From assembly GCA_017471925.1 (NCBI GenBank), contig JAFURM010000050.1, forward strand, positions 1 to 40,045: a DNA stretch of 40,045 nt. Reading direction: 5' to 3'. Under the pieces are notes generated by a model that made no database searches, was not told the DNA's origin, and saw only the letters and a program-made list of their open reading frames with translations. The stretch comes from Bacteroides sp. (GTDB taxonomy: Bacteria; Bacteroidota; Bacteroidia; Bacteroidales; Bacteroidaceae). Positions 1,070 through 38,410 of this stretch are shown in pieces (the first letter of the stretch is position 1; every line of letters begins with the position of its first letter). A program made the translations under genes and the position numbers.

Positions 1070-1256
1070 AGTTGATAGTTGATAGTTGATAGTTTTTTGG
1101 CACGGATGACACGGATGAAAACACGGATTGGGGGGTTATCAATTTTATCAAGTTATCAAAATATCAATTTAAGAAAACCATCAATTGTCAACTATCAACT
1201 GTCAATTGTCAACTGTCAACTGTCAATTATCAATTATAAGAAACTATCAATTATCA
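1070..1256. repeat. Heptamer tracts in inverted arrangement with dispersed motif
   Basis: After the HU-like stop codon there is a tract of YARTTGA heptamers (1070-1094). At 1181-1256 there is a longer tract of the complement, TCAAYTR, ending just before the smalltalk ATG. Between them lie GGCACGGATGACACGGAT (1099-1116) and its variants. The two tracts can pair into a long hairpin. The same heptamer appears at eight other gene borders in this window. Confidence 0.8.
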
Positions 1257-6410: not shown

Positions 6411-6481
6411 ATCGAATTTGGAAATTTTTGAATTATCAACTATCAATTATCAACTGTCAATTATCAACTGTCACCTGTCAA
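6411..6481. repeat. TCAAYTR heptamer tract between nuoM and nuoN
   Basis: About seven consecutive heptamers of the form TCAAYTR fill 6432-6481 and run up to the nuoM stop codon. One unit carries a variant (TCACCTG). The tract sits inside an operon, so it will be in the mRNA. Confidence 0.8.
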
Positions 6482-7963
6482 CTATCTGAACAGGTCCGTT
6501 ATCGGCACTACACTCTCGCCAATCATGTCGCTGACCCACCACGGGGCAAGGCCCAGGGCAGCCACGCAGGCGATGAGGATGATGACAGCCGTGCGCTCGT
6601 CCCACGTGGCATCGCTGAGGGTCAGGTGGTGCTTGTCGGTGCAGGTGCCATAGAGAATCTTGCCCACCAGGCGGAGGATATAGACCGCCGTAATCACGAT
6701 GGAGCAGCAGGCAATGACCGTCCAGGCCCGATGGAAGGTGTCGGCATGCTGGAAGGCACCGTTGAAGATGGTCATTTCGGCCACGAAGCCGCTCAGCCCG
6801 GGCAGCCCCAGGTTGGCCAGGCCGGCAATGACATAGCAGACAGCGAGGAAGGGCATCACCTTCATCAGCCCCGACAGCTCACGCACGTCGCGCGTGTGGG
6901 TGCGTCCGTAAATCATGCCGATGAGGGCAAAGAAGAGGGCCGTCATCAGCCCGTGGCTCAGCATCTGCAACACGGCACCCGTGCAGGCCGTGCGGTTCAT
7001 CATCAGGATGGCGAAGAGCACCAGGCCGCAATGGCTCACGGAGCTGTAGGCGTTGATATACTTCAGGTCCGTCTGCACGCAGGCCGAGAAGGCACCATAG
7101 ACCACCGAAATGCCCGTCAGCACCAGGAAAATCCATCCCAACTCGGCAGCAGCCTGGGGCATGAGGTACATGGCAATGCGGAAGCAGCCGTAGCCCCCCA
7201 GCTTCATCAGCACGCCGGCATGAAGCATGGAGACCGCCGTGGGAGCCGAGGCATGACCGTCGGGGCTCCAGGTGTGGAAGGGAAACAGGGCACCCAGCAC
7301 GCCGAAGCCCAGAAACGTCAGGGGAAACCAGATGCGCTGCTGCTCCACGGGGATATTGCCCTTGGACGCTATCTCCAGCAGGTTCATCGTGTCGGCACCA
7401 CTGCCGTAGTAGATGCCCAGGATGCCTATCAGCAGGAAGGCCGAGCCCCCCATCAGCATCAGCGTCAGCTTCATGGCCGAATACTCCTTCTTGCCGCTTC
7501 CCCACACCCCGATGAGCAGATACATGGGGATGAGCGCCACCTCGTAGAACATGAACATGGTGAAGAGGTCGGTGGAGATGAAGAACCCGAACACACCCAT
7601 GGAGAGCAGCGTGAACCACAGGAAATACTCCTTGGTCAGCGGCCGCAGCTTCCACGAGGCGAACACACCGGTGAAGACGATGATGGCCGACAACAGCAGC
7701 ATGGCTACCGAAATGCCATCCACGCCCACCGAATAGCTGATGTGCAGGGCTGGATACCAGGTTACGGAATCGGTGAAGAGCATCTCTGCGTCGGCACCGC
7801 CGGAGCGGGCCTGCAGGTAAGCAACGGTGAGCCAGGCGGCACCGAGCAACAGTGCCGACGCACCGCACACCATCACGGCACGTATCCACTTGAGGCCGCG
7901 TGCCATCCACAGGGCACCGAGCATCAGCAAAGGAATGAGTACGAATAGACTAAGTATGTTCAT
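6482..7963 (-). CDS. nuoM: NADH-quinone oxidoreductase subunit M
   Basis: This 493-aa antiporter-like complex I subunit has about 14 helices. Clear family segments are FTLLSMGVFGFFISTDLF, MFYEVALIPMYLLIGVWG (with the conserved channel Glu), GVLGALFPFHTWSPDGHASAPTAVSMLHAGVLMKLGGYG and YSSVSHCGLVLFAIL. It forms one of the proton channels driven by quinone reduction. The start at 7963 (MNILSLFVLIPLL) gives the usual N-terminal helix. It is separated from nuoL by a 69-bp heptamer-rich gap. Confidence 0.96.
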   Translation of the reverse strand: MNILSLFVLIPLLMLGALWMARGLKWIRAVMVCGASALLLGAAWLTVAYLQARSGGADAEMLFTDSVTWYPALHISYSVGVDGISVAMLLLSAIIVFTGVFASWKLRPLTKEYFLWFTLLSMGVFGFFISTDLFTMFMFYEVALIPMYLLIGVWGSGKKEYSAMKLTLMLMGGSAFLLIGILGIYYGSGADTMNLLEIASKGNIPVEQQRIWFPLTFLGFGVLGALFPFHTWSPDGHASAPTAVSMLHAGVLMKLGGYGCFRIAMYLMPQAAAELGWIFLVLTGISVVYGAFSACVQTDLKYINAYSSVSHCGLVLFAILMMNRTACTGAVLQMLSHGLMTALFFALIGMIYGRTHTRDVRELSGLMKVMPFLAVCYVIAGLANLGLPGLSGFVAEMTIFNGAFQHADTFHRAWTVIACCSIVITAVYILRLVGKILYGTCTDKHHLTLSDATWDERTAVIILIACVAALGLAPWWVSDMIGESVVPITDLFR

Positions 7964-8040
7964 CTGAATTTTGAATTATCAATTTATCAATTTATCAAAT
8001 TATCAATTTTATCCACTGTCAACTGTCCACTGTCAAATCA
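7964..8040. repeat. Heptamer-like tract between nuoL and nuoM
   Basis: ATCAATTT words followed by TCAACTG-type heptamers fill 7974-8040 and run into the last codons of nuoL. Confidence 0.7.
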
Positions 8041-10111
8041 ACAGCAGCAGAATCAGCGCCAGCGTGCCGAGCAGGAAGACGAAGACATACTGTTGCACCC
8101 GTCCGCTCTGCAGGCTGCGGATGCTGTCGCTGGCGGCATTGGCACTCCAGGCCAGGAAGTCGAAAGCACCGTCCACCACATGGCGATCCCACCAGGCAAT
8201 GGGGCGGCTGATGCATCCGAAGATAATCCGGTGAGTGACAAACTGGTAGACTTCATCGATATAGAAGCGGTGGTAGGCCGCTTTCCACAATCCGCTGAAA
8301 CGGCGCTGCAGGGCATCGGCCACGGGCTGCTTTTCGCCCTTATAGATATAGGTGGCCAGCAAGATGGCACCCGCTGCCACAGCGATGCTGGTGGCGGCCA
8401 CGCCCCAATCCAGATGGATGTCATAGGCCGTGCCGTCGGCAGTGGTGAAGTGTCCGAAGGGGATGAATCCGGCCACGCAGGTGACGGCGGCCAGGAATAT
8501 CAGAGGCAGAGACATGGGGAGGGTATCTCCGAGCCTCTCCCTAACCCTCCCCCGAGGGGAGGGAACAGAGTAAGAATGCTCAGTATCTCCAAGCCTCTCC
8601 CTAACCCTCCCCCGAGGGGAGGGAACAGCGTAAGAATGCTCAGTATCTCCAAGCCTCTCCCTAACAGCGTAGGAATGCTCAGTATCTCCAAGCTCCCCCT
8701 CGGGGGGAGTTGAGGGGGCTCCGGGGGGAGTTGAGGGGGCTCCGTACACAGATGTTTTCCCCCAGAAAATGCCATAATAAAGGCGGAACATATAGAAAGC
8801 CGTCATGCCGGCAATCAGCGTCATGGCTCCTCCCATGACGGGGCTGAACCGGAAGCAGGCAGTCAGAATCTCGTCTTTGGAGAAGAAGCCCGAGAAGGGC
8901 GGTATGCCCGCAATGGCCAGGCAGGCGATGAGGAAGGTCCAATGGGTGACGGGCATATACTTGCGCAGGCCGCCCATGGCCGACATCTCGTTGCTGTGTA
9001 CGGCATGGATGATGCTGCCCGCTCCCAGGAAGAGCAGGGCCTTGAACATGGCATGAGTGAAGAGGTGGAACATGGAGGCCATGTAGCCCAGCCCCCCGTG
9101 GTGCGGGTCGTCGCCGGTGCATACCCCCAGCGCCACCATCATGAATCCGATTTGAGAAATGGTGGAGAAGGCCAGCACACGCTTGATGTCGCTCTGCACG
9201 CAGGCCACCGAGGCGGCATAGAAGGCGGTGAAGACCCCCACGTAGGCCACGATGTGGAGCACGTCGGGCGCATAGCCGATGAAGAGCGGAAACATGCGGG
9301 CCACTAAGTAGACACCTGCCACCACCATCGTGGCGGCATGAATCAGGGCACTGACCGGCGTGGGGCCCTCCATGGCGTCGGGCAGCCAGATGTGCAGGGG
9401 GAACATGGCACTCTTTCCCGCACCGCCGATGGACATCAGCCCCAGGGCGACGGGCAGCAGGCGGGCACCCTCGGCAGGCACGGAGGCCGCTTCACCGAAG
9501 AAACTGTAGGTGCCCGTATAGTAGCCGTAGACCAGGATGCCGATGAGGAATCCCAGGTCGGCGAAGCGCGTCACGATGAATGCCTTCTTGGAGGCGGCGA
9601 TGGCAGCCTGCCTGGTGTAGTAGAAACCGATGAGCAGGTAGGAAGAGACACCCACCAACTCCCAGAAGAGGTACATCTGGAAGATGTTGGTGGCCACCAC
9701 CAGTCCGAGCATGGACATGGTGAAGAGCGAGAGGAAGGCATAGTAGCGCTGGAATCCGCGCTCGCCCTTCATGTAGCCGAAGGAGTAGATGTGTACCATC
9801 AGGCTGACGGTAGAGATGACCACGAGCATCATCACCGAGATGGGGTCGAGCAGGATGCCCAGGTCGATGCTCAGCGTCTCCGTGAAGGGCAGCCAGCGGA
9901 AGTTGCAGGGGATGAGTGTCCCGAAGGTGCCGTCGGCCAGGCGTGGCATGGTGAAGTATTGCCCTGCCGTGAGCCACGACAGCACCGTCACGGCTCCCAA
10001 CGATACCGTGCCGATGAGTCCCGCCGTGCGATGGCCCATCCATTTGCCTCCCAGGCCCAGCGTGAGAAACGAGAGCAGCGGAAGCAGAAGTATCAGAATT
10101 GTATAGTCCAT
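8033..10111 (-). CDS. nuoL: NADH-quinone oxidoreductase subunit L with internal repeat insertion
   Basis: This 692-aa complex I subunit is the distal antiporter-like protein with the long lateral helix at its C-terminus. Family segments include FWELVGVSSYLLIGFYYTR, SAMFPLHIWLPDAMEGPTPVSALIHAATMVVAG and FSTISQIGFMMVALG. It is about 70 residues longer than usual. The excess lies at residues about 455-532, between a helix ending YYGIFWGK and the next helix beginning LPMSLPLIFLAA. It consists of repeated PSPRGRVRERLGDTEHS and GAPSTPP units encoded by DNA repeats (listed separately). The reading frame is intact across the insert, so the protein may be functional if the loop tolerates it. Confidence 0.95.
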   Translation of the reverse strand: MDYTILILLLPLLSFLTLGLGGKWMGHRTAGLIGTVSLGAVTVLSWLTAGQYFTMPRLADGTFGTLIPCNFRWLPFTETLSIDLGILLDPISVMMLVVISTVSLMVHIYSFGYMKGERGFQRYYAFLSLFTMSMLGLVVATNIFQMYLFWELVGVSSYLLIGFYYTRQAAIAASKKAFIVTRFADLGFLIGILVYGYYTGTYSFFGEAASVPAEGARLLPVALGLMSIGGAGKSAMFPLHIWLPDAMEGPTPVSALIHAATMVVAGVYLVARMFPLFIGYAPDVLHIVAYVGVFTAFYAASVACVQSDIKRVLAFSTISQIGFMMVALGVCTGDDPHHGGLGYMASMFHLFTHAMFKALLFLGAGSIIHAVHSNEMSAMGGLRKYMPVTHWTFLIACLAIAGIPPFSGFFSKDEILTACFRFSPVMGGAMTLIAGMTAFYMFRLYYGIFWGKTSVYGAPSTPPGAPSTPPEGELGDTEHSYAVRERLGDTEHSYAVPSPRGRVRERLGDTEHSYSVPSPRGRVRERLGDTLPMSLPLIFLAAVTCVAGFIPFGHFTTADGTAYDIHLDWGVAATSIAVAAGAILLATYIYKGEKQPVADALQRRFSGLWKAAYHRFYIDEVYQFVTHRIIFGCISRPIAWWDRHVVDGAFDFLAWSANAASDSIRSLQSGRVQQYVFVFLLGTLALILLLLI
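8521..8744. repeat. In-frame tandem repeats inside nuoL
   Basis: A 60-bp unit starting near 8521, 8581 and 8641 contains CCCTCCCCCGAGGGGAGGG, a palindromic word. The third copy lacks 21 bp of that palindrome. A fourth partial unit follows at about 8680. Then a 21-bp unit (GGGGGGAGTTGAGGGGGCTCC form) occurs twice, about 8702-8743. All lengths (60, 21, 21) are multiples of three, so nuoL stays open. Confidence 0.9.
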
Positions 10112-38288: not shown

Positions 38289-38290
38289 AC

Positions 38291-38410
38291 TCTAAAACTT
38301 TGCGCAAATATACAAAAGTTTCGGGCACACTCTAAACTTTTCATCAAATAATTCAAAATTTCGGGTATGTTCTAAACTTTTCATCAGGTAATTTGGGTGT
38401 GCCAAAGTTG
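38291..38410. repeat. 40-bp tandem repeat, three copies
   Basis: Copies start at 38291, 38331 and 38371, each with TCTAAA(A)CTTT. The first two end in TTTCGGG plus five or six bases. The third diverges after 20 bp. The repeats cover the promoter of the AAA ATPase gene. Confidence 0.75.
38305..38336 (-). promoter_or_regulatory. Promoter of the AAA ATPase gene within tandem repeats
   Basis: On the minus strand TTTA (38336-38333), 20 bp, then TATATTTG (38312-38305). The start would be near 38298, leaving about 10 nt before the ATG. It lies within the 40-bp repeats. Confidence 0.5.

Follow-up and report, generated by a model that had tools for sequence, protein, structure and literature searches.

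A block of palindromic repeats stands inside an open reading frame of a 40,045-nucleotide stretch of Bacteroides sp. DNA (contig JAFURM010000050.1 of assembly GCA_017471925.1; the whole stretch is hereafter termed the window), in the gene for the L subunit of NADH-quinone oxidoreductase (nuoL), and raises the question of where such a sequence came from and how it came to be carried in frame by a gene of this kind. On the strength of the comparisons described below, the nuoL insert is probably a short, mobile palindromic element copied into the gene in frame, and a non-autonomous relative of a family that carries a DUF559 nuclease domain. It is proposed more tentatively that Bacteroidota may harbour a class of elements in which a DUF559 nuclease lies between palindromic terminal repeats and is translated unspliced within essential genes at homing-like sites, palindromes like that in nuoL being its nuclease-free offspring.

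Architecture of the nuoL insert

The relevant features, in window coordinates and with the support for each in brackets, are:

8033..10111, minus strand: nuoL, NADH-quinone oxidoreductase subunit L, 692 aa, carrying the insert (open reading frame, ORF; NCBIfam NF005141, E 9.7e-179, and TIGR01974, both above cut-off)
8521..8744, minus strand: in-frame insert of ~74 residues with approximate borders, GAPSTPPGAPSTPPEGELGDTEHSYAV...PSPRGRVRERLGDT, read as a palindromic element with tandem duplications (sequence, repeat analysis, loop comparison)
8523..8582, minus strand: copy 1 of the 60-bp unit, the last on the coding strand (Tandem Repeats Finder, TRF, and repeat spacing)
8583..8642, minus strand: copy 2 of the 60-bp unit (TRF and repeat spacing)
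8643..8681, minus strand: third copy, 39 bp, lacking 21 bp that include the hairpin (spacing of 39; TRF row 8624-8700)
8545..8563, no strand assigned: palindrome CCCTCCCC-CGA-GGGGAGGG of 60-bp copy 1, present again at 8605-8623 (read from the sequence)
8693..8719, minus strand: left terminal unit GCCCCCTCAACTCCCCCCGAGGGGGAG, which recurs in the genome and resembles the termini of DUF559 elements (genome matches and comparison)
8701..8742, minus strand: 21-bp tandem pair encoding GAPSTPP twice, the doubled start of the element (TRF and repeat spacing)

The initial annotation of this locus had described 60-bp and 21-bp repeats within nuoL, length changes in multiples of three that included a 21-bp loss in the third copy, and a palindrome within the 60-bp unit. 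TRF and the spacings of 60, 39 and 21 bp, all multiples of three in a frame that stays open over 692 residues, bore out the first two at the place claimed, and the palindrome was indeed present. The two full 60-bp copies were 97% identical (TRF score 272) and separated by substitutions, while the members of the 21-bp pair (8701-8721 and 8722-8742) were exact duplicates. A further palindrome, CTCCCCCTCGGGGGGAG, was located at 8693-8709. Read along the coding strand, the left hairpin unit of the insert (GCCCCCTCAACTCCCCCCGAGGGGGAGCTT) was followed by a spacer (GGAGATACTGAGCATTC...) and this by the right hairpin unit (CCCTCCCCTCGGGGGAGGGTTAGGGAGAGGCT); the right part was repeated and the first 21 bases were doubled. 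Within this genome CCTCTCCCTAACCCTCCC of the 60-bp unit was found in nuoL only, the recurring unit being the 21/27-bp one.

The insert would be translated, its frame predicting a product that includes the peptide APSTPPEGELGDTEHSYAV, and it probably occupies an inter-helix loop, because protein alignment placed a hydrophobic stretch on either side of it (YYGIFWG and MSLPLIFLAAVT). The earlier estimate of about 75 added residues held for the insert itself, but not for the net gain, which amounted to 66 residues relative to the 626-residue NuoL of the nearest relative. Matches returned by an Rfam scan of the window (whalefall-1, E 0.071, and others) were weak, fell far under the gathering scores and were dismissed.

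The NuoL loop in relatives

NuoL was matched in 82 of the 119 genomes of the genus group, and the protein encoded here was aligned with the products of 29 fetched loci, one of which (L035) was frameshifted. Between the motifs GIFW and MS/MT the loop comprised 82 residues here as against 17-38 in the 28 genus relatives. The loop usual in the relatives read GKENKELHAEHTPHESP and was, as KENKELHAEHTPHESP, unrelated to the palindromic unit. The nearest relative, G025, whose NuoL was 89% identical over the N-terminal part, presented AAPSTPTHRGRVREG at the place of the insert, corresponding to the start and end of the insert described here, with an in-frame remnant of 14 residues (APSTPTHRGRVREG). 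Because it holds both ends, this remnant is most simply read as the same insertion shortened in frame. The initial annotation's view that the frame had been kept despite the insert was upheld, and the insert, whose repeat number it had suggested may vary between strains, does differ in length between species. Across the order the N-terminal part of NuoL was matched in 259 of 392 genomes (NuoL relatives included), and among the matches listed the NuoL frame of this genome (700) was the sole one longer than 666 aa.

Copies of the unit in this genome and in the genus

The core CTCCCCCTCGGGGGGAG occurred exactly 14 times in this genome, on every occasion within an ORF. Allowing up to three mismatches gave 58 both-strand matches as against seven for a reversed control, which reduce to 41 distinct places, the core being almost self-complementary, and the 25-base unit gave 17 matches as against none for its control. 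All ten clusters found with up to two mismatches in the stretches examined, like the copy in nuoL, lay in open frames with coding flanks; a two-mismatch core at C57:19659 (stretch L019) was left out of the ten since it had no flanking unit. Five other genes thereby proved to contain the unit in frame: that for LeuS, with four sites, those for two ABC-F ATPases, that for an 894-aa DUF3987-like protein and that for a fusion of dihydroorotate dehydrogenase with glutamate synthase. In two further genes it stood at an end: near the N-terminus of RecQ, where the copy may precede the true start, and at the C-terminus of PhoH, where it forms an extension.

Elsewhere in the genus group, 16 of 118 genomes contained the 25-base unit, which brings the total to 17 of 119 once the present genome is counted; the control gave none. 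Sites covered by a coding-scored ORF (score above 20) numbered one of 23 in G054, three of 19 in G025, one of these being only upstream of a gene, and six of eight in G076; for G054 and G076, with 35 and 14 unit hits, the hits examined were those in 20 and five fetched stretches, respectively. The suggestion that a repeat of intergenic type had entered a gene was upheld, the unit being mostly intergenic in G054 and G025, though mainly within genes in this genome (ten of ten clusters) and in G076 (six of eight). The check proposed with it, a look for the unit between genes elsewhere in this genome, gave core copies of intergenic appearance at three mismatches (C18, C48, C7). Sixteen of the 20 G054 copies displayed were near-identical inverted pairs with AT-rich ends, and in four of the 18 displayed from G025 the left unit was coupled, as in nuoL, with a right unit of TTAGGGAGAGGCT type.

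Several individual copies merit separate description. In ABC-F ATPases of this genome (L007:3071-5479 and L009:2475-4211) and of G025 (L081:2979-4703) the element lay at a shared position separating the two ATPase halves; the copy of C32 was longer. On C18 of this genome (L015:4320-4480) three units with a 54-bp period stood upstream of a 1079-aa ORF, apparently between genes. In G076 (L095:2194-5022) two lipoprotein-like genes carried a reverse unit directly after a lipobox-like cysteine (ACTQEESSPSGGVEGA, ACTQDELSSPTGGVEGA).

The same sites with and without the nuclease

The link to DUF559 came from the LeuS of G054, which contained a nuclease-free element together with an in-frame DUF559 domain (Pfam PF04480, E 2.3e-30). 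Insertion borders were compared at the protein level. Of 28 genus loci (L202-L229), 26 were empty at the LeuS site that precedes FTIFTTRADT and two (G054 and G098) held DUF559; this genome carries a nuclease-free element there, six further fetched loci were empty, and DUF559 occupied the same place in other families and taxa too. The ValS site before VATTRPET held a nuclease-free element in G076 and DUF559 in G380, both proteins being assigned to ValS by NCBIfam above cut-off, and the right end of the G380 element (AGCTCCCCCTTCGGGGGAGTTGAGGGGGCT) approximated to the nuoL-type unit.

LeuS seems to be a hot spot for inserts. A different in-frame repeat, composed of GTRGQGNE units, was located in the LeuS of G064 (L230) between EGIVCNS and LNGLTV, at the site of the second LeuS element of this genome, and LeuS frames longer than 1000 aa, with inserts partly located, were also recorded in G045, G079 and G096.

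Distribution, hosts and flanking repeats of DUF559

By hand count, DUF559 was present in 31 of the 119 genus genomes (38 rows, seven in open frames of at least 500 aa, a natural Vsr-methylase fusion being set aside) and in 167 of the 392 order genomes, with 26 of the best 150 rows in open frames of at least 500 aa. The fusion, G106 L149:1141-2964, joins a Vsr nuclease to a C-5 cytosine methylase in a different arrangement and matches DUF559 weakly. A scan of named genomes yielded 80 loci, in 49 of which the domain lay in frame within a long open frame. Hosts named through Pfam and NCBIfam comprised LeuS, IleS, ValS, MetG, RecG, MetH, CCA tRNA nucleotidyltransferase, acetate-CoA ligase, adenine deaminase, alpha-xylosidase, a SpoIID-like protein, N6 methylases including HsdM, and an epimerase; the 29 entries so named included the Vsr-methylase fusion, a nuclease-free ValS and some genes twice, and the hosts of the remaining loci were assigned from flanking sequence. 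Certain sites recurred among the 80, namely LeuS before a TTRPDT-type motif (10), MetH before ATVKGDVHDIGKN (nine), IleS before FPADFIAEGVDQTRGW (six), RecG (four) and MetG (three). Out-of-frame insertion into a host gene was found in none of the 31 remaining loci, where both halves of any of the 49 host proteins, the only hosts recognisable by this means, were sought around the nuclease; the single match to both halves (L296) lay away from it. The sole MetH-inserted DUF559 outside Bacteroidota among the named loci came from L259, a short contig in a metagenome bin assigned to Candidatus Nitrotoga, for which mis-binning or transfer is possible because its DUF559 groups with Flavobacteriaceae.

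The left flank of DUF559 matched the reverse complement of its right flank (score of at least 24) in 58 of 79 named loci, the eightieth being too short, compared with one of 74 windows taken 800 bp away and 23% for flanks drawn from different loci. Units of nuoL type (up to six edits) were 35-fold denser within 250 bp of DUF559 (65 hits at 39 of the 80 loci) than at distances above 500 bp (23 hits in 501,671 bp). Perfect 8-bp hairpins showed a corresponding concentration, with 2.81 per kb at 0-150 bp, 0.25 at 150-300 bp and 0-0.31 in farther bins. At least one side had a hairpin within 300 bp in 44 of the 80 named loci; among unnamed loci, from which short ones were left out (23 and 27 of 30 used), the equivalent figures were 20 of 23 for the genus and 15 of 27 for the order, as against two of 30 for a NuoL control with none within 150 bp. 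At the sequence level the nuoL unit resembles the terminal inverted repeats of DUF559 elements.

Reading frame, selection and fold

When each forward unit was assigned to its own variant in 16 genes of four genomes, all began at the first base of a codon (seven of seven for GCCCCCTCAACT, nine of nine for GCCCCCTCTAACT), and all reverse units matched in these genes shared one phase. Three stop-free frames are possible for forward GCCCCCTCAACT and two each for forward GCCCCCTCTAACT and the reverse unit, of which one was used per orientation. These counts include copies within one gene and paralogues, which are not independent, and the same forward places were also picked up with the alternative variant, shifted by one base (nine and four double matches). 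The right end of DUF559 elements was mostly fixed in phase (17 of 21).

Comparison of 14 DUF559 domain pairs gave pN values of 0.04-0.23 and pS values of 0.41-0.91; dN/dS, estimable in seven pairs with most dS values near saturation, lay at 0.05-0.08 for the six in-gene pairs and at 0.20 for the one pair outside genes. The in-gene domain is thus under purifying selection, and hence translated and retained. On a tree of the 80 domains, built from 118 columns with many forks open, host-site labels required 28 changes as against 45.8 in shuffles (none of 200 as low); RecG and MetG each formed one group, and LeuS, MetH and IleS several. The DUF559 sequence profile matched two PDB entries, 3hrl with an E-value of 6.9e-33 and, at 2.2e-6, 3r3p, which is titled 'Mobile intron protein' and represents homing endonucleases of the I-Bth0305I/Vsr-like type. 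A Caulobacter DUF559 protein is described as Vsr-like in the excerpted text of PMC12907096.

Proposed origin and the evidence weighing against it

On the reading preferred here, a left hairpin unit (GCCCCCTCAACT plus CTCCCCC/GGGGGAG), a spacer and a right hairpin unit would have entered nuoL in a single event in the common ancestor shared with the sister species G025, the copy then being lengthened in the present lineage by 60-bp and 21-bp tandem duplication and shortened in G025, in three-base steps. The full form of the family would comprise a DUF559 endonuclease (Vsr-type PD-(D/E)XK) between such units as terminal inverted repeats, residing between genes and, in frame, at recurrent sites in housekeeping genes, where it would be translated with its host and remain unspliced. 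Most likely the nuclease, supplied by a host fusion or by intergenic copies, would cut the empty site and the element would be copied in by repair in a homing-like manner. Nuclease-free copies such as that of nuoL would either spread in trans as non-autonomous derivatives or persist as relics, and selection would leave only in-frame, stop-free inserts in tolerant loops.

A number of observations weigh against this account. DUF559 was not matched in this genome (89% complete), and the nuoL copy could therefore be a nuclease-free relative only, nor was the domain seen inside nuoL among the open frames listed for the order. Across the 119 genus genomes the unit (17) and DUF559 (31) coincided in three as against 4.4 expected by hand count, one of the three having a weak partial DUF559 hit only. 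The 16 genus DUF559 genes displayed with their flanks were bounded, by eye, mostly by other palindrome families; in 41 of the 80 named loci no nuoL-type unit was nearby, a perfect 8-bp hairpin was lacking within 300 bp at 36, and was present on both sides at only 26. The left-end phase of DUF559 elements was not fixed (nine, seven and four of 20), which argues against the full element being strictly frame-locked. Finally, 49 in 80 overstates the in-gene share, since most of the domains from which the query alignment was made were themselves in genes; in the hidden Markov model listings the figures were 26 among the best 150 order rows and seven of 38 in the genus. The missing domain, lack of co-occurrence, other flanking palindromes, loci without the unit and variable left phase together leave room for another mover, and DUF559 is accordingly put forward as the putative mobiliser of the nuoL-type element with moderate confidence.

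Alternative explanations

It is conceivable, if rather unlikely, that the insert is an ordinary palindrome of the repetitive extragenic palindromic (REP) or miniature inverted-repeat transposable element (MITE) type, moved by an unrelated transposase (a REP-associated tyrosine transposase, RAYT, of the Y1 type, or an insertion sequence, IS, acting in trans), the DUF559 link being coincidental or secondary. The failure of unit and DUF559 to co-occur in the genus would suit such an origin, as would the resemblance of the G054 intergenic inverted pairs to classic MITE/REP dimers, and REPs inside genes are known from the consulted portion of PMC3733652. Set against this are the LeuS and ValS sites common to nuclease-free and DUF559 elements and the enrichment of the unit and of inverted repeats around DUF559. 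A RAYT/Y1 transposase was rejected as the mover since PF01797, positive in five of 14 control genomes, had no match in this genome at its 89% completeness, in a search confined to that transposase family.

An origin from nuoL's own sequence by local slippage or tandem duplication, with no mobile element, would account for the 60-bp and 21-bp tandem copies, and loop length does range over 17-38 residues across the genus. It is nonetheless very improbable, being largely refuted by the presence of the unit elsewhere, both within and between genes and in this and further genomes, and by the unrelated loop of the relatives, though such a process may explain the secondary lengthening. Removal or skipping of the insert, as an intron, intein or ribosomal bypass element, appears still more remote. 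Palindromes in genes are typical of fungal mitochondrial bypass elements, and RNA of the nuoL insert folds mildly better than shuffled sequences (z -2.10, 5/200), a margin on which no RNA function is claimed; but no Rfam family was found in 12 loci and no intein family in 10 DUF559 proteins, the frame runs stop-free through insert and host, and purifying selection on the in-gene DUF559 domain shows that it is translated. Scarcely any weight is given to an assembly artefact or mis-joined contig, although the genome is a draft of 59 contigs and repeats are prone to mis-assembly, given that the unit lies in several other genes, a remnant stands in the nuoL of another species, and the 60-bp copies differ by substitutions.

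Relation to known systems

The nuoL insert is a variant of the in-frame palindromes already known in genes. Such palindromes, frequently present as dimers or in groups, have been described in protein genes of unrelated kinds, those for tRNA synthetases and repair proteins among them, for Rickettsia and for the CGTC/GTAG REPs, in the consulted portions of PMC3733652 and PMC10969869. Like the Rickettsia palindromic elements, the nuoL-type unit lies in frame in unrelated genes: besides nuoL, five contain it internally and two have it at an end. Its sequence is different, no CGTC tag being apparent by eye in GCCCCCTCAACTCCCCCCGAGGGGGAG (the Rickettsia sequences were not aligned). Whereas CGTC repeats were apparently without a dedicated transposase, according to the part of the 2013 survey consulted (PMC3733652), a nuclease was found here between inverted repeats of the same architecture. 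In common with REP/RAYT systems (REPtrons), palindromes flank the gene for a DNA-cutting enzyme and many enzyme-free copies exist, but the enzyme is DUF559 rather than a Y1 tyrosine transposase, none of which was matched in this genome, and no GTAG tag was seen by eye at the nuoL-type unit; GGTGGTAGGT does stand next to other DUF559 flanks. Likeness to I-Bth0305I and other Vsr-like homing endonucleases resides in the related nuclease domain and the recurrent sites in conserved genes; the difference is that DUF559 is accompanied by no detected intron or intein, is translated in the host frame and is bounded by palindromic terminal inverted repeats. The element also resembles a MITE in being short, with terminal inverted repeats, no enzyme of its own and many copies, yet its apparent parent is a nuclease element and not an IS. 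The titles and abstract openings of open-licence PubMed Central papers revealed none that connects DUF559 with palindromic repeats or with insertions carried in frame by housekeeping genes, subscription papers and preprints lying outside that search.

If the proposal is correct, the family of in-gene palindromes would acquire a testable mover, in the form of a candidate enzyme situated between like repeats at shared gene sites. It would show how a selfish nuclease can survive inside essential genes when nothing splices it out, would account for insertions rich in proline and glycine that occur in tRNA synthetases and further housekeeping proteins, and would make such elements a source of new protein loops.

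Other repeats in the window

TRF also recorded tandem repeats of 7 to 8 bp, of the TCAACTG, TATCAAC or TTATCAAT type, at window positions 1176-1237, 6431-6486 and 7976-8009, the latter two adjoining complex I genes, together with further arrays of 25/49 bp and 40 bp at 1373-1475 and 38289-38393.

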